Shown: piece after piece, positions 13,027-53,351 of the stretch
Numbering within the stretch: the first letter of the stretch is position 1
Layout of the letters: every line of letters begins with the position of its first letter
Source of the DNA: Arcticibacter tournemirensis
GTDB lineage: Bacteria; Bacteroidota; Bacteroidia; Sphingobacteriales; Sphingobacteriaceae
Assembly (NCBI RefSeq): GCF_006716645.1
Contig: NZ_VFPL01000001.1
Coordinates: 2,108,001 to 2,172,000, forward strand
Reading direction: 5' to 3'
DNA length: 64,000 bases
Notes under the pieces: model-generated
The model's database searches: none
The model's input: only the letters and a program-made list of their open reading frames with translations
Told to the model about the DNA's origin: nothing
Position numbers and translations under genes: made by a program

Positions 13027-13065
13027 ATTTAGCTGTCTTTTGGCTATTAGCCATCAGTCTTTAGA

Positions 13066-13168
13066 TTTCAGCCTTGAGCCTTCAGCTTTTACCTTTTACC
13101 TTTCGGCTCTCCACTTTACCTTTTAGCTTTAACCTTTCCACTTTCAACTTTCCACTCTCAACTCTCAA
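13066..13168. repeat. Heptamer tandem array at the 3' end of moxR
   Basis: Plus-strand units with period 7 include CTTTTAC twice (13086-13099), CTTTCGG, CTTTTAG, CTTTAAC, CTTTCCA, CTTTCAA, CTTTCCA and CTCTCAA twice (13155-13168), with two one-base slips. In the moxR sense the units read GTTGAGA, GTGGAAA and GTTGAAA. The moxR stop codon (13165-13167) lies inside the terminal unit. Confidence 0.8.
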
Positions 13169-14187
13169 GGTACTTCTACTACATTCAGGATGCCTGTAAT
13201 TATATCCTCTGTAGTGATGTTTTCTGCCTCTGCTTCATAGCTCAGCCCGATGCGATGACGCAGAACATCGTGACAAACGGCACGTACATCCTCGGGGATC
13301 ACATAGCCTCTTCTTTTAATGAAAGCGAGGGCCTTTGCTGCCAAAGCGAGACTGATACTTGCACGGGGAGACGCACCATAACTAATCAGATTCTTGTAGT
13401 CGGGCAATTTATATTGGTCGGGAAATCTTGTCGCAAACACGATATCGATAATATATTGCTCAATCTTTTCGTCCATATACACCTCTCTCACTACTTTCCG
13501 CGCTTTAATGATCTCTTCAGGACGAATGATTGCATTGGGTTTTAACATTCCCTGCGGACTAATATTCGCACGCATGATCCGTTTTTCCTCGTCCTTATTG
13601 GGGTAGCCAATAACGATCTTCAGCATAAAGCGGTCTGTCTGTGCTTCCGGAAGAGGGTAGGTTCCTTCCTGCTCTATTGGATTCTGAGTGGCCAGTACCA
13701 GGAAAGGGGAGGGTAGAGGGAAGGTCTGGTCGCCGATAGTTACCTGTCTTTCCTGCATCGATTCAAGTAAAGCACTCTGTACCTTAGCCGGCGCCCTGTT
13801 TATCTCGTCGGCCAGGATGAAATTAGAGAAAATGGGTCCTTTCCTGACGATAAATTCATCTTTTTTCTGATTGTATATCATTGTCCCCACGAGATCGGCC
13901 GGCAATAGGTCGGGTGTGAACTGTATTCTGCTAAAGTCTGCCTGTACTGCCTTGGCCAACGTGTTGATGGCAAGTGTTTTTGCAAGCCCCGGCACACCTT
14001 CTAAAAGGATATGGCCATCTGCCAGAAGTCCTATCATCAGTCGCTCCACCATATACTTCTGACCGATAATAACTTTATCCATCTCCATCATTAAAAGGTC
14101 GATAAATGCGCTTTCTCTCTGAATCATTTCGTTCAGAGCCCTGATATCTGTTGAGTACGATGAATTACTATTTACTAATTCTTCCAT
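13165..14187 (-). CDS. moxR: MoxR family AAA+ ATPase
   Basis: The protein has Walker A GVPGLAKT, Walker B ILADEINR, sensor 1 LATQNPIEQEGTYPLPEAQTDRFM and a C-terminal lid, all characteristic of MoxR ATPases. The start chosen is ATG 14185-14187 (MEELVNSNSS), giving 340 residues; an in-frame ATG eight codons upstream (14211) is possible. MoxR proteins act as chaperone-like ATPases for VWA proteins. This is the first gene of the Bat locus on the minus strand and probably defines its promoter. Its stop codon is embedded in a heptamer repeat array. Confidence 0.93.
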   Translation of the reverse strand: MEELVNSNSSYSTDIRALNEMIQRESAFIDLLMMEMDKVIIGQKYMVERLMIGLLADGHILLEGVPGLAKTLAINTLAKAVQADFSRIQFTPDLLPADLVGTMIYNQKKDEFIVRKGPIFSNFILADEINRAPAKVQSALLESMQERQVTIGDQTFPLPSPFLVLATQNPIEQEGTYPLPEAQTDRFMLKIVIGYPNKDEEKRIMRANISPQGMLKPNAIIRPEEIIKARKVVREVYMDEKIEQYIIDIVFATRFPDQYKLPDYKNLISYGASPRASISLALAAKALAFIKRRGYVIPEDVRAVCHDVLRHRIGLSYEAEAENITTEDIITGILNVVEVP

Positions 14188-14509: not shown

Positions 14510-15331
14510 ATGATGAAGTCAGCCCGGTTAATGATCGCGTTTATATGTTTATGTCCTGGTATCGTTCATTCACAACAGGATAGCGTTCCTGAGTTTTTGG
14601 AATCGGTTTCTTTTGTTTTTCCCAACAAAACAGTTGATATACTTAAGTCGAATTATAAAAAGGCAAATCTCAATTTTTTAATACTCCACGATAACGAAAA
14701 TACAGGTGTCAGGGCTGCTCATGCTTTTTGTAGAAATCGCGGAGGGAGCTTAACAGAGCTAAAGTATGGGAATACGAGAAATATAACGTTTGGCAGCAGG
14801 CGTTCTTTATTATCTTTTGATCCCAATCAAATCTTTAATGACGTGGGAGCTTATTTGAGCCTGAAGAGACACAGTAAGGGCAGAGAGGACTCCCTCGCTG
14901 TTCAAAAAGCGCGCGATCTTGCAAGATTAGCTCTTAAAGTATATAATCCTGATACCTCCGGCTATATCATTACGCTTCATAATAATTCGGACGGGAAATT
15001 CAGCATCGAATCCTATCTCGAAGGGAATTACTTGCATGGCACTGCGGATAGCGTATACATTAATCCAGCGATGGATCCTGACGACCTCGTGTTAGTAACA
15101 GACCCTGCCTTTTTTAATTTCCTGAAACAGCAAAATGTAAATGTTGTTCTTCAAAGCCAGACCGGGCCTGCAGATGGCTCACTATCAGTTTATGCTCAGG
15201 TGAATAAAATTCCTTATTTTAATATTGAAGTTCAGCACGGGCATCTCGCGGAAAATATCCGGCTGATCTATGTGGTAGAGTCGATGTTTAAAACAATGGG
15301 CATAAACGAAGAATATGCTCAAAGTCGATGA
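14510..15331 (+). CDS. Secreted protein of unknown function, possible metal hydrolase
   Basis: The 273-residue protein begins with a signal peptide (MMKSARLMIAFICLCPGIVHSQ). I cannot assign it to a named family with confidence. The conserved-looking motifs are LHDNENTG near residue 59, RRSLLSFDPNQIFNDVG near 98, LHNNSDG near 152 and NIEVQHGHLAENIRLI near 246. Spaced His, Asp and Glu residues of this type recall zinc peptidases or amidohydrolases of the M14 or N-formylglutamate amidohydrolase kind, but this is inference. The gene stands alone between moxR (divergent) and the PorP/SprF gene. Confidence 0.7.
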   Translation: MMKSARLMIAFICLCPGIVHSQQDSVPEFLESVSFVFPNKTVDILKSNYKKANLNFLILHDNENTGVRAAHAFCRNRGGSLTELKYGNTRNITFGSRRSLLSFDPNQIFNDVGAYLSLKRHSKGREDSLAVQKARDLARLALKVYNPDTSGYIITLHNNSDGKFSIESYLEGNYLHGTADSVYINPAMDPDDLVLVTDPAFFNFLKQQNVNVVLQSQTGPADGSLSVYAQVNKIPYFNIEVQHGHLAENIRLIYVVESMFKTMGINEEYAQSR

Positions 15332-15422
15332 AGACTTTTCTATAAAGCAGCCGGGAAATGTATCATATAATGGAAGAATAGTGCGCTCCTGCTTCGACCA
15401 CTATTCTGGAACTCTTCGGGAT

Positions 15423-15523
15423 GAGTGCACGGTGAGAGCACAGTGAGTGCACGGTGAGTGCACCCTTTCCCGGTAAAAGGTGCACTCACCGTGCACTCAC
15501 CCTGCACTTACTGTGCTCTCACT
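15423..15523. repeat. 11-bp tandem repeat in inverted pair
   Basis: The left arm has four units related to GAGTGCACGGT (second unit GAGAGCACAGT, fourth GAGTGCACCCT). After a 14-nt spacer the right arm carries the reverse complement, units of the type GTGCACTCACC. The first 22 bp of the arms pair perfectly; one extra unit (CCTGCACTTAC) sits in the right arm, after which 11 more bp match. The single-stranded form would make a very stable hairpin. Confidence 0.85.
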
Positions 15524-23622: not shown

Positions 23623-24093
23623 ATGCCCTACCAACCAGACAAAATTGATCTTCAAATTCTTAAAACGTTGCAGCAGAACGGACGTATTACAAATCTGCAG
23701 CTTTCCACTGAAATAGGTCTGTCGCCAGCCCCTACCCTCGAACGGGTAAGGAAGCTCGAAAACCTTGGTGTAATTAAAAGTTATCATGCAATAGTAGATG
23801 AAGAGGAACTCGGGCTGGGAATCAAGTCGTTTATTCAAATTCAGCTCGACTTCCATCAGAACAATACTATTCAGACTTTTGTTGACGAGGTAAAGAAAAT
23901 TAAAGAGATTACAGAGTGTCATCATGTGACCGGGCTCTGCGATTTCGTCCTGAAAATTTACGTAAAGGATATTAAGGCCTACGAGAAACTGATCATGGAA
24001 AAGATCAGCAAGATCAGAGTGGTAAAAACTTTCCAAACCATGATGATCCTTTCAACAAGCAAGAAAGAGCCGGTGATCCCGCTGGAATACTAA
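23623..24093 (+). CDS. Lrp/AsnC family transcriptional regulator
   Basis: The 156-residue protein has an N-terminal winged HTH (DLQILKTLQQNGRITNLQLSTEIGLSPAPTLERVRKLENLGVIKSYHA) and a C-terminal RAM ligand domain (ECHHVTGLCDFVLKIYVKD). Length and order are those of standard Lrp proteins. It is divergent from mntH, with about 100 bp between the starts, so it could control either gene. A heptamer repeat array begins 2 nt after the stop. Confidence 0.92.
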   Translation: MPYQPDKIDLQILKTLQQNGRITNLQLSTEIGLSPAPTLERVRKLENLGVIKSYHAIVDEEELGLGIKSFIQIQLDFHQNNTIQTFVDEVKKIKEITECHHVTGLCDFVLKIYVKDIKAYEKLIMEKISKIRVVKTFQTMMILSTSKKEPVIPLEY

Positions 24094-24095
24094 GG

Positions 24096-24172
24096 CAATT
24101 GACAATGGACAATTGACAATGGAGAGTTGACAATTGACAATTGACAATTGAGAATGGGCAATTGACAGTGTG
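24096..24172 (+). repeat. Heptamer array downstream of lrp
   Basis: Eleven consecutive 7-bp units stay in perfect register: CAATTGA (six copies), CAATGGA (two), GAGTTGA, GAATGGG and CAGTGTG. Shifted by phase they fit ATTGACA. The array begins 2 nt after the lrp stop codon. Confidence 0.9.
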
Positions 24173-24249
24173 TCTAATTTAATTAGTTTCGCAGCAAAAC
24201 AACCGTGCATAAATTCAATTATGCGATATCATTTTCAATTCTGCATTAT

Positions 24250-24277
24250 CAACTGTCCACTGTCCCCTGTCAATTGT
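24250..24277 (-). repeat. Heptamer array downstream of ung, inverted relative to the lrp array
   Basis: Four units CAACTGT, CCACTGT, CCCCTGT and CAATTGT run directly into the ung stop codon (24278-24280). In the ung sense they read ACAATTG, ACAGGGG, ACAGTGG and ACAGTTG, the same type as the array after lrp. Confidence 0.85.
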
Positions 24278-24952
24278 CTAAATTTGCCAGTCTATCGGTT
24301 CAAGTCCCTGTTCTTTCAGCAACTGGTTTGTTTTGGAGAAATGACGGCAACCGAAGAAGCCATGCTCTGCAGAGTAGGGTGAGGGGTGGGCTGCTTTCAG
24401 GATGAAATGTTTATTCGCGTCGATTAGAGGCATTTTTGCCTGAGCATTTTTCCCCCAGAGCAGAAAAATAATTCCCTTTTTCTTTTCAGACAGTTCAATG
24501 ATTGCCTGGTCGGTGAACTTTTCCCAGCCCTTGTTATGGTGTGAGGCTGGTTCTCCTTTTCGGACGGTAAGGGTAGCGTTTAGCAGTAGCACTCCTTCGT
24601 CGGCCCATTTAGTTAGCTCTCCGTGATTGGGAATGGTAAATCCTTCGATGTCGTTCTTTAACTCTTTATAAATGCTTCGTAAGGAGGGAGGAACTGTTAC
24701 TCCTTTTTGCACTGAGAAAGCAAGTCCGTGGGCCTGTCCCTGACCATGGTAGGGGTCCTGCCCCAGGATCACGGCTTTTACCTTCTGAAACGGTGTATGA
24801 TTGAACGCGTTAAATATCATATTCCCCGGGGGGAAAACGGTCTTTCCTTCCTGTTTTTCCCTGAGAAGAAAGGCTTTAAGATCTTTCATGTAGTCCTTTT
24901 GAAATTCTCCTTCAAGGGCGGCTTTCCATGATTCTTCTATTTGAACAGGCAT
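24278..24952 (-). CDS. ung: Uracil-DNA glycosylase
   Basis: The start ATG 24950-24952 (MPVQIEESW) gives 224 residues, the usual Ung length; an ATG 17 codons upstream would add a non-conserved tail. The catalytic water-activating motif GQDPYHGQGQAHGLAFSV and the DNA-intercalation motif HPSPYSAEHGFFG are complete, and LLLNATLTVRKGEPASHHNKGWE is typical of family 1. It removes uracil from DNA to start base excision repair. The stop codon abuts a heptamer repeat array. Confidence 0.96.
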   Translation of the reverse strand: MPVQIEESWKAALEGEFQKDYMKDLKAFLLREKQEGKTVFPPGNMIFNAFNHTPFQKVKAVILGQDPYHGQGQAHGLAFSVQKGVTVPPSLRSIYKELKNDIEGFTIPNHGELTKWADEGVLLLNATLTVRKGEPASHHNKGWEKFTDQAIIELSEKKKGIIFLLWGKNAQAKMPLIDANKHFILKAAHPSPYSAEHGFFGCRHFSKTNQLLKEQGLEPIDWQI

Positions 24953-25899: not shown

Positions 25900-27621
25900 T
25901 TATTCAAACCAGAGCATGACTTCCTCTTTCGAAGGCATGGTTATTTCAAGTTTCAGCTTTTTACGCATTCCTCCGAGATCGTTAAATACCTTATTCGGGT
26001 TGCCGGCTTTAAGCTCCTCTATTGTATTGAATCCCATTTTCAGGAGAACAGGAACCCATTCTACAGGGACTCCAATCGCTACAAAATCATCTACTGAAGC
26101 TACTTTCAATCGTTTCTCGGGGCGCATCTGCGGGAAGAAAAGAACCTCCTGTATGGTGCTCTGGTTGGTCATAAGCATCACCAGCCTGTCGATACCAAAA
26201 CCGAGCCCTGAAGTAGGAGGCATCCCGTATTCAAGAGCTCTCAGGAAATCTTCGTCCATCGCCATTGCCTCTTCATCACCACGGTCGGCCAGTGCCAACT
26301 GGTCCTCAAAGCGGCCTCTTTGGTCTATCGGGTCGTTTAACTCTGAATAAGCATTTCCGATTTCCTTCCCGTTAACAAATATTTCAAATCTTTCAACCAG
26401 CCCTTCAATACTGCGGTGTTTCTTGGCCAGAGGGGTCATTTCTACCGGGTAATCGGTAATGAACGTAGGCTGGATGAGGTTGGCCTCTACTTTTGCGCTG
26501 AAAATTTCATCCACCAGTTTGCCTTTGCCCATCGATTTATCGACCTCAATGTCGAGGTCGCGGCATACCTGGCGGAGCATCGGCTCGTCCATTTGGGAAA
26601 CATCAATACCTGTATATTTTTGTATGGATCCGAACATTGATAGTTTCTCGTAGGGGCCGGCAAAGTCAATCAGATGTTCAGCAACTTTTACCACTGAAGT
26701 ACCATGGATAGCCAAAGCAATCTTTTCGAGACATTCTTCAACCATCGACATCATCCAGATATAATCCTTATAGGCCACATAGATTTCCATGGAGGTAAAC
26801 TCAGGATTGTGAGTGCGGTCCATCCCTTCATTGCGGAACATCTTGCCAAATTCGTAAACGCCATCGAAGCCTGCTACAATGAGCCTTTTCAAGTATAGCT
26901 CATTAGCGATTCGCAGGTAGAGGGGCATGTCGAGCGTATTATGATGCGTTTTAAACGGCCTCGCAGCTGCACCGCCATGTATCGGCTGAAGGATCGGTGT
27001 TTCCACCTCCATCCATCCCTGGCTGTCGAAGTAATTCCTCATCGTATTGATTACCTTCGAGCGGTTGATAAAGATCTGCTTGAGCTCAGGATTAACGGTA
27101 AGGTCGACATATCTTTGCCTGTATCTTAATTCGGGGTCAGTAAATCCGTCGAATATGTTGCCCTGCTCGTCTCTCTTTACTACGGGAAGAGGCTTGAGTG
27201 ATTTTGCCAGGAGCGTAAGTTCAGTTACATGGACAGAGATTTCCCCTGTTTGAGTTGTAAAAACAAAGCCCTTAACGCCTACGTAGTCGCCTATGTCGAG
27301 CAATTTCTTGAATACCGTATTATAAAAAGTTTTGTCCTCGCCGGGGCAGATATCATCGCGCTTTATATAAACCTGGATACGGCCGGTAGAATCCTGCAAT
27401 TCGGCGAAAGAGGCACTTCCCATGATACGGCGGGTCATGATTCGTCCGGCAAAGCTGATATTCTTATATGATGTTTTATCCCGTTCGTAATTTTCTTTTA
27501 TATCCCTTGCTGTAACGTTTACATTGTATGATGCAGCAGGATAAGGCTCGATACCGAGCTGTCTTAACTGCTGTAATGCCTCGCGGCGTAAAATTTCCTG
27601 TTCGGACAGTCCAATACTCAT
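25900..27621 (-). CDS. lysS: Lysyl-tRNA synthetase, class II
   Basis: The 573-residue protein has an OB-fold anticodon-binding domain at about 55-160 and the class II core with motif 2 FRNEGMDRTHNPEFTSMEIYVAY and motif 3 GFGIDRLVML. It charges tRNA-Lys. It extends about 70 residues beyond the usual end of bacterial LysRS (after FFPQMRPEK): the tail VASVDDFVAIGVPVEWVPVLLKMGFNTIEELKAGNPNKVFNDLGGMRKKL resembles a helix-hairpin-helix module. Such tails are seen in Bacteroidota enzymes. A TACTTTTG -7 box lies 20 nt upstream of the start. Confidence 0.96.
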   Translation of the reverse strand: MSIGLSEQEILRREALQQLRQLGIEPYPAASYNVNVTARDIKENYERDKTSYKNISFAGRIMTRRIMGSASFAELQDSTGRIQVYIKRDDICPGEDKTFYNTVFKKLLDIGDYVGVKGFVFTTQTGEISVHVTELTLLAKSLKPLPVVKRDEQGNIFDGFTDPELRYRQRYVDLTVNPELKQIFINRSKVINTMRNYFDSQGWMEVETPILQPIHGGAAARPFKTHHNTLDMPLYLRIANELYLKRLIVAGFDGVYEFGKMFRNEGMDRTHNPEFTSMEIYVAYKDYIWMMSMVEECLEKIALAIHGTSVVKVAEHLIDFAGPYEKLSMFGSIQKYTGIDVSQMDEPMLRQVCRDLDIEVDKSMGKGKLVDEIFSAKVEANLIQPTFITDYPVEMTPLAKKHRSIEGLVERFEIFVNGKEIGNAYSELNDPIDQRGRFEDQLALADRGDEEAMAMDEDFLRALEYGMPPTSGLGFGIDRLVMLMTNQSTIQEVLFFPQMRPEKRLKVASVDDFVAIGVPVEWVPVLLKMGFNTIEELKAGNPNKVFNDLGGMRKKLKLEITMPSKEEVMLWFE

Positions 27622-27640
27622 CGTCGTTGTGTAATTTTTG

Positions 27641-27648
27641 CAAAAGTA
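27641..27648 (-). promoter_or_regulatory. -7 box of the lysS promoter
   Basis: Minus-strand TACTTTTG matches TAnnTTTG exactly; the start codon follows 19 nt later, leaving a short leader. Confidence 0.55.
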
Positions 27649-27664
27649 GCAATTATTGGGGGAG

Positions 27665-27686
27665 AAATCCGAAAGCTTTCGGATTT
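27665..27686. promoter_or_regulatory. 22-bp perfect palindrome upstream of lysS
   Basis: The segment AAATCCGAAAGCTTTCGGATTT is fully self-complementary. It lies 16 bp upstream of the lysS -7 box, across the expected -33 region, and next to a heptamer array. It could be an operator, or a hairpin in the RNA of fadD read-through. Confidence 0.5.
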
Positions 27687-27687
27687 C

Positions 27688-27778
27688 GGCAGTTGGCTTT
27701 GGCTTTCAGTTATCAGCAATCAACTTTCTACTTTGAACTTTTAACATTCAACTCCCTACTTCCAACTCCCTTCATCCC
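27688..27778 (-). repeat. Heptamer array at the 3' end of the acyl-CoA ligase gene
   Basis: Thirteen consecutive 7-bp units stay in register, from GGCAGTT and GGCTTTG through GCAATCA, ACTTTCT, ACTTTGA and ACTTTTA to ACTCCCT and TCATCCC. In the gene sense they read like GTTGAAT, GTTAAAA and GTTCAAA. The stop codon of the ligase gene (27772-27774) lies inside the last unit. Confidence 0.85.
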
Positions 27779-29685
27779 TCTGCTTCTTCCTCCTGGTATA
27801 GTTTATTTATATCGTGTGCATATTTTTTCTCTATCACTTTCCGTTTCGCCTTAAGGGAAGGGGTCATTTCGCCTGCCTCAATAGAAAAGGGATTCCGTTT
27901 AACCATAAAGTTTTTGATGCGTTCGAATTTCGCCAGCTCATGGGAAAGCTTCCTGATGTCCTGCGCAATCCATTCTCTTATTTCTTTATCCTCGATAAAC
28001 ATTTCAGGATTTTGAAAGAACTCTTCCGGAAGTCCGAACTCATGTTGCAAGCTATCTTTAGAGGGAACTACAATTGCTGTTATATACTCACGTTTGTCGC
28101 CTATCAGGAAGATCTGTTCTATCTTCTGGCTTTTGAGGTAGGTATTCTCGACGGGCGTAGGGTAAACATTCTTGCCGTAAGAGTTCACCAGGATGTTTTT
28201 TATCCTGTCGGTGATCTTTAGATTCCCCTTGTAAAAAAGGCCTACGTCACCTGTGTGAAACCAACCCTCCGGGTCAATGGCCAGGGCTGTATCTTCCGGT
28301 TTGTTCCAATACCCTTTCATCACGCAGTGGCCGCGCACTATTATTTCGCCTTCGGGTGATTCGAACGACGGATCGAAGCTTTCATGTGTTTGAACGGTGT
28401 AGATCTTCCCTGTTTCGACATCCTGAATGCCAACTTCTATCCGGGGGATAATCCGACCCACCGTACCGTATACCTGACGGTCGAATTCGGTGATCGACAT
28501 GATGGGAGAGGTCTCTGTCAGCCCAAATCCTTCGAGGACTTTGATGTTGAGATTTCCAAAAAATTCGCCTACGTTTTTGGGGAGCGCAGCTCCACCCGAC
28601 AGCAGGCATTTCAAACGGCCGCCTGTCTTTTCCCTAATCTTGCTGAAGACCAGCTTGTCGGCTATTTTTTGTTGTATAGATATAGCGAGGCCAGGCCTTT
28701 TGCCGGCTTCTTTGATTTCGCGGTATTTTCTTCCTATATCTATAGCCCAGTTAAATACCTTTGCTTTGGCGCCGCCGGCCTGTGTTGCACTTTTTACTGC
28801 CTTGTCATGAATTCGTTCCAGCAAACGCGGAACACAGTTCATAAACGTTGGCTTGATCTCCTCCATGTTTTTTGCCAGGAGTTCAAGACTCTGCGAAAAA
28901 GCTATTCTACAGCCTTTTGCGCTGCATACATGATAGGTTGCAGTACGTTCAAATACATGTGAAAGAGGGAGAAACGACAGGAAGACTTCTTTTGAAGTAA
29001 CTACAGGAATTTGCTCCAGGGAAGCCTTTACGTTCTCAATGAAGTTATGATGCGTAAGCATTGCGCCTTTCGGTATGCCTGTAGTGCCCGAGGTGTAGAT
29101 TAATGCTGAAAGATCTGATGGTAATACGGCTTCCCGGCAAGCAAGGATTTGCTTTTCGTGAACAGGAAGATTCTTTCTGCCTTGTGCCAGGAGTGCAGAA
29201 AATCCAATTACTCCGGCGTTCAGATGAATGCCCTCCAGATACTTTTCGTAATTATCAAACGCAGGAATGATCCGTTCGAGAGAAGGACAGTTGTTCGCTA
29301 TTTTTATTATCTTTCTAAGAAGGAATGGTGTTCCTACCAGGATTGTCCTTACGCCGGCGTCATTCAGGATATATTCAATTTCGTGTTCCGATAGTGTGGG
29401 GTAGATGGAAACATTTACCGCCCCGATCTGCTGAAGTGCCTGGTCGTAGTATATGTATTCAGGTGAATTTTCTATTATAAATCCCAGACGGTCGCCCTTC
29501 TTTATCCCTATCTCCAGGAGATAGCCCGATATGGCATCTGCATTATCGAGTGTCTGCTTAAAGCTTATCTCCTTCCAGCGTCCGTCTTCTTTGTGCATCA
29601 GGAACGTTTCTGTCTCAGGGTGAATGTTATTCACAACGTTACGCAGCAACTCAGGAACTGTGCTGAATCCGGTCTTCAAATTCAT
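27772..29685 (-). CDS. fadD: Long-chain fatty-acid-CoA ligase (AMP-forming)
   Basis: The 637-residue protein has the adenylate-forming motifs in order: P-loop LIYTSGTTGIPKGAMLTHHN near 200, FLPLSHVFERT, GFGLTETSPI near 395, GEIIVRGHCVMKGYW, and the Asp of GWFHTGDVG with NILVNSYGKNVYP near 535. It activates fatty acids to acyl-CoA with ATP. Proteins of this length with a C-terminal KANGEMTPSLKAKRKVI-type end are common in Bacteroidota, where several paralogues occur, so the symbol is a class name. The stop codon is embedded in a heptamer array. Confidence 0.92.
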   Translation of the reverse strand: MNLKTGFSTVPELLRNVVNNIHPETETFLMHKEDGRWKEISFKQTLDNADAISGYLLEIGIKKGDRLGFIIENSPEYIYYDQALQQIGAVNVSIYPTLSEHEIEYILNDAGVRTILVGTPFLLRKIIKIANNCPSLERIIPAFDNYEKYLEGIHLNAGVIGFSALLAQGRKNLPVHEKQILACREAVLPSDLSALIYTSGTTGIPKGAMLTHHNFIENVKASLEQIPVVTSKEVFLSFLPLSHVFERTATYHVCSAKGCRIAFSQSLELLAKNMEEIKPTFMNCVPRLLERIHDKAVKSATQAGGAKAKVFNWAIDIGRKYREIKEAGKRPGLAISIQQKIADKLVFSKIREKTGGRLKCLLSGGAALPKNVGEFFGNLNIKVLEGFGLTETSPIMSITEFDRQVYGTVGRIIPRIEVGIQDVETGKIYTVQTHESFDPSFESPEGEIIVRGHCVMKGYWNKPEDTALAIDPEGWFHTGDVGLFYKGNLKITDRIKNILVNSYGKNVYPTPVENTYLKSQKIEQIFLIGDKREYITAIVVPSKDSLQHEFGLPEEFFQNPEMFIEDKEIREWIAQDIRKLSHELAKFERIKNFMVKRNPFSIEAGEMTPSLKAKRKVIEKKYAHDINKLYQEEEAEG

Positions 29686-46167: not shown

Positions 46168-46240
46168 AATTGTCAGGCGATTGTGAATTGGAGCTATATC
46201 GGTCATGGGCTAATTGTCAAATTAACAATTGACAAATTAG
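46168..46240. repeat. Degenerate ATTG-type repeats next to the SRP RNA
   Basis: Units such as ATTGTCA, ATTGTGA and ATTGGAG and an inverted pair (CTAATTGTCAAATT with AATTGACAAATTAG) are present, but the 7-bp register is poor. It is placed downstream of the SRP RNA on the minus strand. Confidence 0.45.
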
Positions 46241-46250
46241 AGAAAAAAAA

Positions 46251-46349
46251 GTGGGCTAGCACCTTCTATCGCACCGCTACAACCCTCTACCCTTGCTGCG
46301 TTCCCACCCTGGGGGAGTTCAAGAGGAGCTGGTCGTAGAAGACTAACCC
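46251..46349 (-). ncRNA. ffs: Signal recognition particle RNA, small bacterial type
   Basis: The minus strand reads as a 4.5S-like RNA of about 100 nt. The conserved Ffh-binding region is present: AACTCCCCCAGGGTG, GGAA tetraloop, then CGCAGCAAGGGTAG. The 5' segment GGGTTAGTCTTCTA pairs with the 3' segment TAGAAGGTGCTAGCCC to form the outer stem. Eight to nine T residues follow (46242-46250 complement). A TATATTTG box (46354-46361) sits just upstream. The ends are estimated from the outer stem and promoter spacing. Confidence 0.85.
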
Positions 46350-46353
46350 GGGG

Positions 46354-46361
46354 CAAATATA
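46354..46361 (-). promoter_or_regulatory. -7 box of the SRP RNA gene
   Basis: Minus-strand TATATTTG matches TAnnTTTG, with the expected 5' end of the RNA about 5 nt downstream. Confidence 0.6.
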
Positions 46362-52624: not shown

Positions 52625-52664
52625 AAAAAGAAGCCTGCCCTTTTCCGGGCAGGTTTCTTTTTTT
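52623..52664 (+). terminator. Intrinsic terminator of gltBD
   Basis: An 18-bp stem with one G-T pair (52623-52640 with 52647-52664) has a 6-nt loop, with A-run and T-run at the base, so it can work in both directions. The 5' arm starts at the stop codon. Confidence 0.9.
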
Positions 52665-52718: not shown

Positions 52719-52795
52719 CAGTTGCCAATAGCCAATAGCCTATAACCAGCAACCTACAACTCACAACCTACAACCCACGATCTACAACCTGCAAC
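52719..52795 (-). repeat. Heptamer array extending into the 3' end of the TrmH-type gene
   Basis: Eleven units in register: CAGTTGC, CAATAGC (two), CTATAAC, CAGCAAC, CTACAAC (three), TCACAAC, CCACGAT and CTGCAAC. In the gene's sense these are GTTGTAG, GTTGCAG and ATTGGCT types. The stop codon (52782-52784) and the last codons (Gly-Cys-Arg-Leu) are coded by the repeats. The left units pair with those after gltD. Confidence 0.88.
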
Positions 52796-53351
52796 CTGCC
52801 TTCGCAAAGAAATCCCATAGTACTATTCCTGCAGACACCACGATATTAAATGAGTGTTTTGTTCCGAATTGTGGAATTTCAATGCAGGTGTCAATCTCTT
52901 TCATTGCTTCGTCTGAAACGCCGTTCACCTCATTGCCGAATATCAGCGCATATTTTAACCCGTTTAACGGCTGGAAATCATTCAGCATTACGCTGTTTAA
53001 GGCCTGCTCGATTGCTACGATCTTATACCCGCTGGATTTCAATTCCCCGATAGCTTCAGATATTTCGGTAAAGTACTTCCAATCGATAGACTGGGTAGCG
53101 CCCAGCGCTGTTTTTTCAATTTCACGATGAGGTGGCTGACCGGTTATCCCGCATAGAAATATTTGCTCTACTGCAAACCCATCGCATGTACGGAAAATCG
53201 ACCCGACATTATGCATGCTTCTTACATTGTCGAGCACCACTGTGACGGGAAGTTTTTTTTGTTGCTTAAACGCTTCGACGCTGGCCCGGTTTAGCTCGTC
53301 CAGTTTGAGTTTCCGTACATTTTCTCCGGTTGTATCCTCCCTTGTGTCCAT
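52782..53351 (-). CDS. TrmH/SpoU-type RNA ribose methyltransferase
   Basis: The 189-residue protein has the SPOUT motifs: LDNVRSMHNVGSIFRTCDGF (motif 1), ALIFGNEVNGVSDEAMKEIDTCIEIPQFGTKHSFNIVVSAGIVLWDF (motifs 2 and 3). It should 2'-O-methylate a tRNA or rRNA nucleotide. Its length is that of short TrmH-like proteins. The last residues, GCRL, and the stop come from a heptamer array, so the native C-terminus has been replaced or extended. Confidence 0.9.
   Translation of the reverse strand: MDTREDTTGENVRKLKLDELNRASVEAFKQQKKLPVTVVLDNVRSMHNVGSIFRTCDGFAVEQIFLCGITGQPPHREIEKTALGATQSIDWKYFTEISEAIGELKSSGYKIVAIEQALNSVMLNDFQPLNGLKYALIFGNEVNGVSDEAMKEIDTCIEIPQFGTKHSFNIVVSAGIVLWDFFAKAGCRL

Follow-up and report, generated by a model that had tools for sequence, protein, structure and literature searches.

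Short tandemly repeated heptanucleotides, dispersed over the genome, are known from cyanobacteria as STRR sequences. REP/BIME and REPIN elements are palindromes of Enterobacteria and Pseudomonas that lie behind genes and are scarce between divergent genes; they have a constant element sequence and are linked to RAYT transposases. Heptamer arrays as such have been noted here and there among bacteria, and their cause is not agreed on. Rehm et al. (2015; PMC4692102) described heterogeneous, mostly intergenic heptamers, built of GGGAATC in Xanthomonas and of GGGGA(C/T)T in Nostoc, and mentioned heptanucleotides of Calothrix. According to the passages of that paper used here, the arrays lie preferably between aligned ORFs and are under-represented between divergent ones, and their G-rich strand is found in sense within 50 bp of a stop codon or in antisense just upstream of an ORF. 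The same passages give 70 and 75 inverted pairs for two Xanthomonas genomes, place prominent repeats at different genes in related species, and report that transcript starts and stops at repeats were commoner in the quadruplex-capable group than in the control group. Direct repeats of TAACTGA, described by MacGregor (2015; PMC4679880), occur in Beggiatoaceae, Cyanobacteria and five Bacteroidetes. According to the relevant sections, most of those in the main genome stood directly before start codons; there were 169 direct sets and one indirect repeat, and a translational role was proposed. In Escherichia coli, Rho-independent terminators include inverted repeats with a short spacer that follow closely on stop codons, according to the section of PMC6060812 used here. 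A search of open-licence papers found no description, for Sphingobacteriaceae, of heptamer arms located where genes end.

The window analysed here, a stretch of 64,000 nt from the genome of Arcticibacter tournemirensis (Sphingobacteriaceae; 5.66 Mb in 2 contigs), contains a convergent pair of genes, lrp and ung, separated by 184 nt that carry two heptamer arrays in inverted orientation (Table 1). The nearest named relative of the lrp gene, among the best 80 of 441 relatives, was that of Pararcticibacter amylolyticus with 93% identity. On the lrp side, GG follows the stop codon, and the units then run in a single register in the order CAATTGA, CAATGGA, CAATTGA, CAATGGA, GAGTTGA, CAATTGA (three times), GAATGGG, CAATTGA and CAGTGTG. 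The initial annotation counted eleven units from 2 nt after the lrp stop; the starting point held, but the number was generous. Nine of the first ten units match CAATTGA at 5/7 positions or more, the ninth at 4/7, and the decayed eleventh, reaching 24172, at 3/7, so that about ten is a better count. On the ung side, the units in ung sense from the stop were ACAATTG, ACAGGGG, ACAGTGG and ACAGTTG, followed by approximately three decayed ones, and four clear units abutting the ung stop were thus found as annotated. The plus strand of the gap held 13 units matching at 5/7 or more in one register, compared with at most 7 in 500 Markov shuffles, and the ung side alone (24248-24277) gave 17/23 lag-7 matches (P 0.0002). 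The unit list and the shuffles also agreed with the annotation that both arrays are of the same type in the sense of their own gene and form an inverted pair. Tandem Repeats Finder (TRF) reported the lrp-side array with period 7 (10.3 copies, score 95) and period 28 (score 107), and on the ung side only a weak fragment (24252-24271, score 33). A promoter reading of the repeats was rejected: the 5 TTGACA-N17-GANAAT-like sites (1.0 expected) were due to the array periodicity, and the site lies between convergent 3' ends. Bacteroidota promoters follow a different consensus.

Table 1. Features of the lrp-ung locus and further heptamer arrays in the window
Feature	Position	Strand	Remarks
lrp/asnC-type regulator gene	23623..24093	+	Pfam AsnC_trans_reg 7.3e-20, HTH_24 1e-17; stop TAA 24091-24093
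ung, uracil-DNA glycosylase family	24278..24952	-	Pfam UDG 1.1e-15; stop 24278-24280
Heptamer array on the lrp side: ten units of CAATTGA type, with G>C in lrp sense	24096..24165	+	TRF, lag-7 scan (Markov controls free of arrays), shuffles
Spacer between arms; weak A/T-rich palindrome inside, without canonical terminator	24166..24228	.	
ung-side heptamer array	24229..24277	-	lag-7 matches; array boundary exactly at 24277; four clear units 24250-24277
Whole lrp-ung gap, one long hairpin on both strands (predicted fold)	24094..24277	.	
Heptamer array, two lag-7 pieces 13034-13103 and 13115-13168	13034..13168	-	G-rich in sense behind stop of minus-strand gene 13165-14187
Heptamer array	27706..27770	-	adjoins stop of minus-strand gene 27772-29685
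Heptamer array	52724..52799	-	3' end of minus-strand gene 52782-53351; canonical-looking terminator 52625-52664 in same gap

Such arrays were frequent in the genome. A 2.464-Mb sample, comprising the window and 120 stretches of which three (L155, L192 and L206) had been placed on known CAATTGACAATTGA hits, contained 105 lag-7 arrays (94 intergenic, 6 mixed and 5 coding). The first 1.264 Mb accounted for 47 of them, compared with 0 in its Markov control, and when lags from 4 to 21 were scanned in this part, only lags 7 (47), 14 (55), 21 (34) and 11 (13) gave more than 4 arrays. With gene boundaries taken from a simple dicodon caller instead of a standard annotator, arrays were present in 20/119 convergent, 46/683 tandem and 4/235 divergent gaps longer than 60 nt (convergent vs divergent, p 3e-7; convergent vs tandem, p 8e-4). 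The preference persisted at 15/113, 39/642 and 4/220, respectively, when the window and the three placed stretches were left out (convergent vs divergent, p 5e-5).

Several individual sites were recorded during the census. The longest array of the first 1.264 Mb (L112:19552-19750) has approximately 28 heptamers with a lag-7 score of 177, the units being mostly of CTTCAAC type in the part inspected. In the window, a class II (D/K/N type) tRNA synthetase gene (25900-27621) is separated from its neighbour by a gap (27622-27771) approximately 105 nt longer than its counterpart in L009; 65 nt of this gap are heptamer array. An 11-mer counterpart of the heptamer hairpins was found at 15422-15522, behind the plus-strand gene 14597-15331, where a run of GAGTGCACGGT-type units and then its inverted copy form 60-nt arms around a 6-nt loop; L154 has a similar 11-mer hairpin of TCAGCATCTCA type. 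A AATTGACA-type repeat at 46212-46238 lies directly beyond the 3' end of the Small SRP RNA (Rfam RF04183; minus strand, 46249-46356).

The arrays showed a marked strand polarity. When each array was assigned to its nearest gene boundary, those lying no more than 50 nt from the 3' end of a gene had more G than C in the sense of that gene in 56/60 cases (p 9e-13). Without the window and the three stretches placed on known hits, the arrays no more than 10 nt from a 3' end were purine-rich in gene sense in 33 cases, pyrimidine-rich in 2 and tied in 1. These counts strongly supported the initial annotation in its claim of a fixed polarity relative to gene 3' ends. An outward excess of G over C was also seen in 15/22 arrays near 5' ends. 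Among 22 gaps with several arrays, 6 had a single orientation and 16 had both, and the G-rich arm came first in 16/16 of the latter; together with the frequency of arrays in convergent gaps, this agreed with the expectation of inverted arrays at convergent pairs genome-wide. The polarity extended beyond this genome: the 3'-end arrays had G>C in 13/17 cases at the loci of relatives (best 80 of 441) and in 9/11 in G170, a genome of another family, though 7/11 of the latter were pyrimidine-rich in sense. A purine-first rule was rejected for general use, as the pyrimidine arm came first in 5/7 multi-array gaps of G170.

Heptamer inverted repeats and plain hairpins differed in this respect. In the A. 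tournemirensis sample, the left arm of heptamer inverted repeats had G>C against G<C in a ratio of 30:1, compared with 36:33 for plain short-loop hairpins (Fisher 3e-6). Left arms of heptamer repeats also had G>C in 24/28 convergent and 5/5 tandem gaps of relatives (best 80 of 441) and in 4/5 cases in G170. Outside this genome, plain hairpins showed some polarity of their own, with ratios of 30:16 in relatives (best 80 of 441) and 8:20 in G170. Four heptamer repeats in divergent gaps of relatives (best 80 of 441) were counter-examples to the polarity, three with G<C, one with G=C and none with G>C.

The lrp-ung site itself was compared across relatives, taken as the best 80 of 441 lrp loci found. 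These 80 loci included 49 convergent ung gaps of 25-450 nt, 10 gaps shorter than 25 nt (six with overlapping stops), 7 longer gaps and 14 loci without a convergent ung within 2.5 kb. The best inverted repeat exceeded all 50 shuffles in 44/49 gaps of 25-450 nt, a count that does not stand for 49 independent trials, since the 80 relatives are related to one another. In these 44 gaps (best 80 of 441), the 5' arm had G>C in 39 and began no farther than 20 nt from the lrp stop in 38, and the end of the 3' arm lay at most 20 nt from the ung stop in 36. The units differed at this one site while the inverted arms were retained. At least eight kinds of arm were distinguished among the 44 gaps (best 80 of 441): 29 matched one of seven 7-8-nt units, mostly other than the CAATTGA type, namely GARTCAA (10), GATGTGCA (7), TTTGAA (5), AATTAGTG (3), AGATTAG (2), GTTATG (1) and GAGAATA (1); 4 were CCCCTAAAG palindromes, and 11 were of other kinds, including plain hairpins with loops of 3-7 nt in L031, L034, L070 and L075. 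In the Mucilaginibacter gaps L023, L029, L035 and L058, the arms are CCCCCTAAAGGGGG-type palindromes and not heptamers. By eye, a canonical-looking terminator was flanked by the arms in some of the relatives' gaps.

Within the genus, GTTATG-type hairpins were found in two genomes with lrp-ung gaps of 69 and 146 nt, and the lrp and ung stops overlapped, without any array, in three. The 69-nt gaps of L009 and G201 read alike and should count as one. Pararcticibacter amylolyticus, a culturable relative with arrays, carries the 69-nt hairpin between lrp and ung. A pattern of three consecutive TRANRRT units matched 98, 382, 0, 0, 4 and 1 times in six genomes of the genus, and occurred in 96/198 genomes across the phylum. 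Its reversed-pattern control gave 54 matches in A. tournemirensis and 180 in G199; as the pattern is nearly symmetric on reversal, this control is of little use, and only the within-genus contrast was used. The genome with 382 matches was G199, where nearly all of the matches listed were TGAAAGT or TGAAGGT. Set against the 0-4 matches in four other congeners, this count suggests that a single unit type has recently expanded there. The lrp-ung gap offers a comparative system in which one site ranges, over dozens of sampled genomes, from overlapping stops to long heptamer hairpins.

Likeness between arms was a property of the individual gap. In a length-normalised permutation test on 15 arm pairs, arms within a gap were more alike than permuted partners (0/10000); in raw scores the complementarity had looked weak, the own partner being the best of all in 4/15. 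The array consensus of the genome was TRWNRRT, and a 7-mer was shared by 24% of array pairs within the genome, compared with 3% of pairs between this genome and relatives (best 80 of 441), 2% of pairs with G170 and 5% after column permutation. A quadruplex motif (four G-tracts of at least 3) was present in 0/100 arrays of this genome, 0/28 in G170 and 1/30 in relatives (best 80 of 441).

The initial annotation also proposed that the arrays might replace a terminator by RNA pairing. Generalised, this explanation holds that base pairing between the arms within either transcript yields a bidirectional terminator, or a shield of the 3' end, that stands in for the canonical kind. The absence of a classical terminator between lrp and ung was corroborated, as a search for intrinsic terminators (GC-rich short-loop hairpin followed by a T-run) in 23950-24450 found 0 sites. 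The gap (24091-24280) is predicted to fold strongly on both strands (MFE -56.5 and -60.7 kcal/mol), with z values of -4.94 and -5.98 against 200 dinucleotide shuffles per strand. Canonical terminators were found in 4/21 convergent gaps with an array vs 49/112 without, and in 3/42 vs 146/687 tandem gaps (CMH p 0.004; single Fisher tests p 0.05 and 0.03). The counts in array gaps were close to what a one-strand Markov background gave (2/21 and 4/42). The order of convergent, tandem and divergent gaps in array content, and the complementarity kept by the arms while the units differ among relatives (best 80 of 441), also favor this explanation. The heptamer stems, however, carried no mark of selection at the RNA level. 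In sense RNA of tandem gaps, mismatches of G-U and A-C type were equally frequent in 44 heptamer hairpins (37:37), compared with 141:48 in 203 plain hairpins (Fisher 2e-4), the latter excess being expected if RNA pairing is selected; this comparison sets long-loop heptamer hairpins against short-loop plain ones and, being made on tandem gaps, does not include the convergent lrp-ung pair. Loop length is indeed a confounder that could explain part of the heptamer parity, since long-loop repeats of non-heptamer kind were also at parity (113:122). By sample, the heptamer ratios were 24:30 in this genome, 6:3 in relatives (best 80 of 441) and 7:4 in G170, the latter two subsets being small and leaning toward G-U. 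In convergent gaps, where both strands are transcribed, both kinds of hairpin were at parity (70:84 and 24:29). Moreover, inspection by eye found 3'-end arrays without a partner arm in the fold (L110:9743-9890 and L206:10039-10175) and gaps that hold a canonical terminator besides the array (window 52625-52664; L096, L185, L192 and L206). No T-run terminator lies at lrp-ung, the plain hairpins of this genome have no G-first polarity, and the three congeners with overlapping stops manage without any lrp-ung gap. The terminator reading of the initial annotation was thus partly supported, by the strong fold and the scarcity of canonical terminators, while the observation on which it was built was confirmed and generalised. 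Pairing may aid termination here and there, but there was no sign that an RNA function keeps the arms alike or that the hairpin is selected for stopping RNA polymerase, and we regard the replacement of terminators by RNA hairpins as rather unlikely. If the hairpins do terminate, they would form a quickly evolving class of terminators whose pairing persists while the sequence is replaced, which would be equally notable.

Another candidate is a mobile element like REP/BIME or STRR that an enzyme carries to the 3' ends of genes, with the array as its scar or cargo. It would account for units common to several loci of one genome, for lrp-ung sites with and without an array across genus and family, and for the strongly differing numbers of matches to a single unit pattern among congeners. 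With the arrays masked, however, matches were found in 20/2485 pairs from 71 gaps, and 30/31 match rows were period-7 leftovers. Two neighbouring L170 gaps shared 60 nt (one pair). Constant element ends were not seen at the array gaps, and the two arms at L201:12024-12229 are of different unit type; mobility of this kind appears improbable. Rut sites are C-rich and G-poor, and a strand of this composition toward the gene 3' end could load Rho and stop backward transcripts. The 56/60 polarity mirrored on the antisense strand, the richness of convergent gaps in arrays and the presence of a rho gene agree with such entry sites against antisense transcription. The C-rich arm of a paired array would, however, be hidden by pairing with the G-rich arm, and the outward lean near 5' ends appears where no such role is needed; we consider this explanation quite improbable. 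Backup stop codons, i.e. TGA- or TAA-containing 7-mers closing all three frames behind a gene, were also considered. Stops were denser in sense than in antisense in 55 arrays of this genome (0.64 vs 0.31 per 7 nt) and in 10 arrays of G170 (0.85 vs 0.59; Markov 0.53), but composition explains most of the former value (Markov 0.55), and 17 arrays of relatives (best 80 of 441) showed the reverse (0.19 vs 0.36), 10/17 holding no sense stop, which suggests that stop-free arrays are equally frequent and equally near to stop codons. The ten G170 arrays exceeded their background, those of this genome stayed near it, and the candidate was unsupported overall and is hardly credible.

We consider it nearly as probable as not that the lrp-ung arrays are one case of dispersed, lineage-specific heptamer repeats that grow as DNA in unconstrained sequence directly behind stop codons. 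A heptamer of the lineage vocabulary, presumably seeded from other arrays, would appear at a gene 3' end. Slippage could then lengthen the array, as suggested by its degenerate but locally homogeneous head-to-tail units, and fold-back template switching could copy the arm into an inverted partner and keep the two alike, which would be consistent with the likeness of arms within a locus. The G-rich strand may be the sense strand owing to a coupling of this growth to transcription, for instance by way of R-loops formed on the C-rich template; this link is a guess. The long hairpin so formed may help RNA polymerase stop. The 7-mers shared within the genome, together with the hardly shared sequence outside the arrays, fit repeats that draw their units from a common vocabulary, grow by slippage and gain an inverted arm by fold-back template switching. 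The polarity, the preference for convergent gaps, the parity of G-U and A-C mismatches, the turnover of units within the genus and the many kinds of inverted arm at lrp-ung in relatives (best 80 of 441) also speak for growth as DNA. A related process has been described in yeast, where, according to the part of PMC3820800 used here, transcription-dependent mutations extend the identity of inverted arms and are linked to RNA-DNA hybrids. Against growth as DNA stands the terminator deficit of the array gaps (CMH p 0.004), which a functional substitute would predict. The loop-length confounder in the G-U comparison, the opposite lean of the small heptamer subsets from relatives and G170, the non-neutral plain hairpins in other samples and the divergent-gap exceptions in relatives count against it as well. 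The DNA-growth and terminator readings predict different, testable outcomes.

A broader form of DNA-level growth is possible, though on the doubtful side. Throughout Bacteroidota, an active process would build intergenic DNA behind stop codons, with lineage heptamers spreading between loci, lengthening and being mirrored into inverted arms whose G-rich strand leads away from the gene; unrelated units would replace each other while complementarity persists. The same process would then be common to the quadruplex-type heptamers of Xanthomonas and Nostoc, the quadruplex not being its cause. The geometry found here is like that of Xanthomonas while the quadruplex motif is missing, which weakens quadruplex formation as the cause; the geometry seems to need another. 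Non-quadruplex arrays with the same geometry point to a general, gene-oriented origin of the repeats.

The arrays can thus be placed among the described systems. Like STRR sequences, they are short, dispersed tandem heptanucleotides; polarity and inverted pairing lie outside the STRR description as we know it. Unlike REP/BIME and REPIN, they consist of variable tandem units with next to no common sequence outside the array. With the terminator repeats of E. coli, as described in the section of PMC6060812 used here, they share the position of inverted repeats just past stop codons; they differ in that the heptamer arms are G-first in this genome and show no sign of selection on the RNA, while plain short-loop hairpins bear such a sign and, in this genome, lack the G-first polarity. 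The TAACTGA repeats, in the relevant sections of PMC4679880, are likewise intergenic heptamers with a strand preference relative to genes, with other heptamers mixed in, in Bacteroidetes, and TAACTGA is a rotation of TGATAAC, which is near the TRWNRRT consensus of the present genome. The main genome of that study is described there as having one fixed unit, mostly upstream of starts, in contrast to the lrp-ung unit CAATTGA, which stands behind a stop codon in inverted arms. The closest likeness is with the Xanthomonas and Nostoc heptamers of PMC4692102, which, in the passages used here, share with the present arrays the many-copy, intergenic head-to-tail heptamers, the G-rich strand in sense near stops and the inverted pairs. 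The Xanthomonas and Nostoc units are able to form G-quadruplexes, with a preference for arrays of four, compared with 0/100 arrays with the motif here; furthermore, many unit types occur per genome here, and the inverted arms persist at lrp-ung while the units differ. The paired 3'-end heptamer geometry is therefore already published for Xanthomonas and Nostoc (PMC4692102), and what is new, relative to those passages, is a non-quadruplex variant in Bacteroidota with many units.
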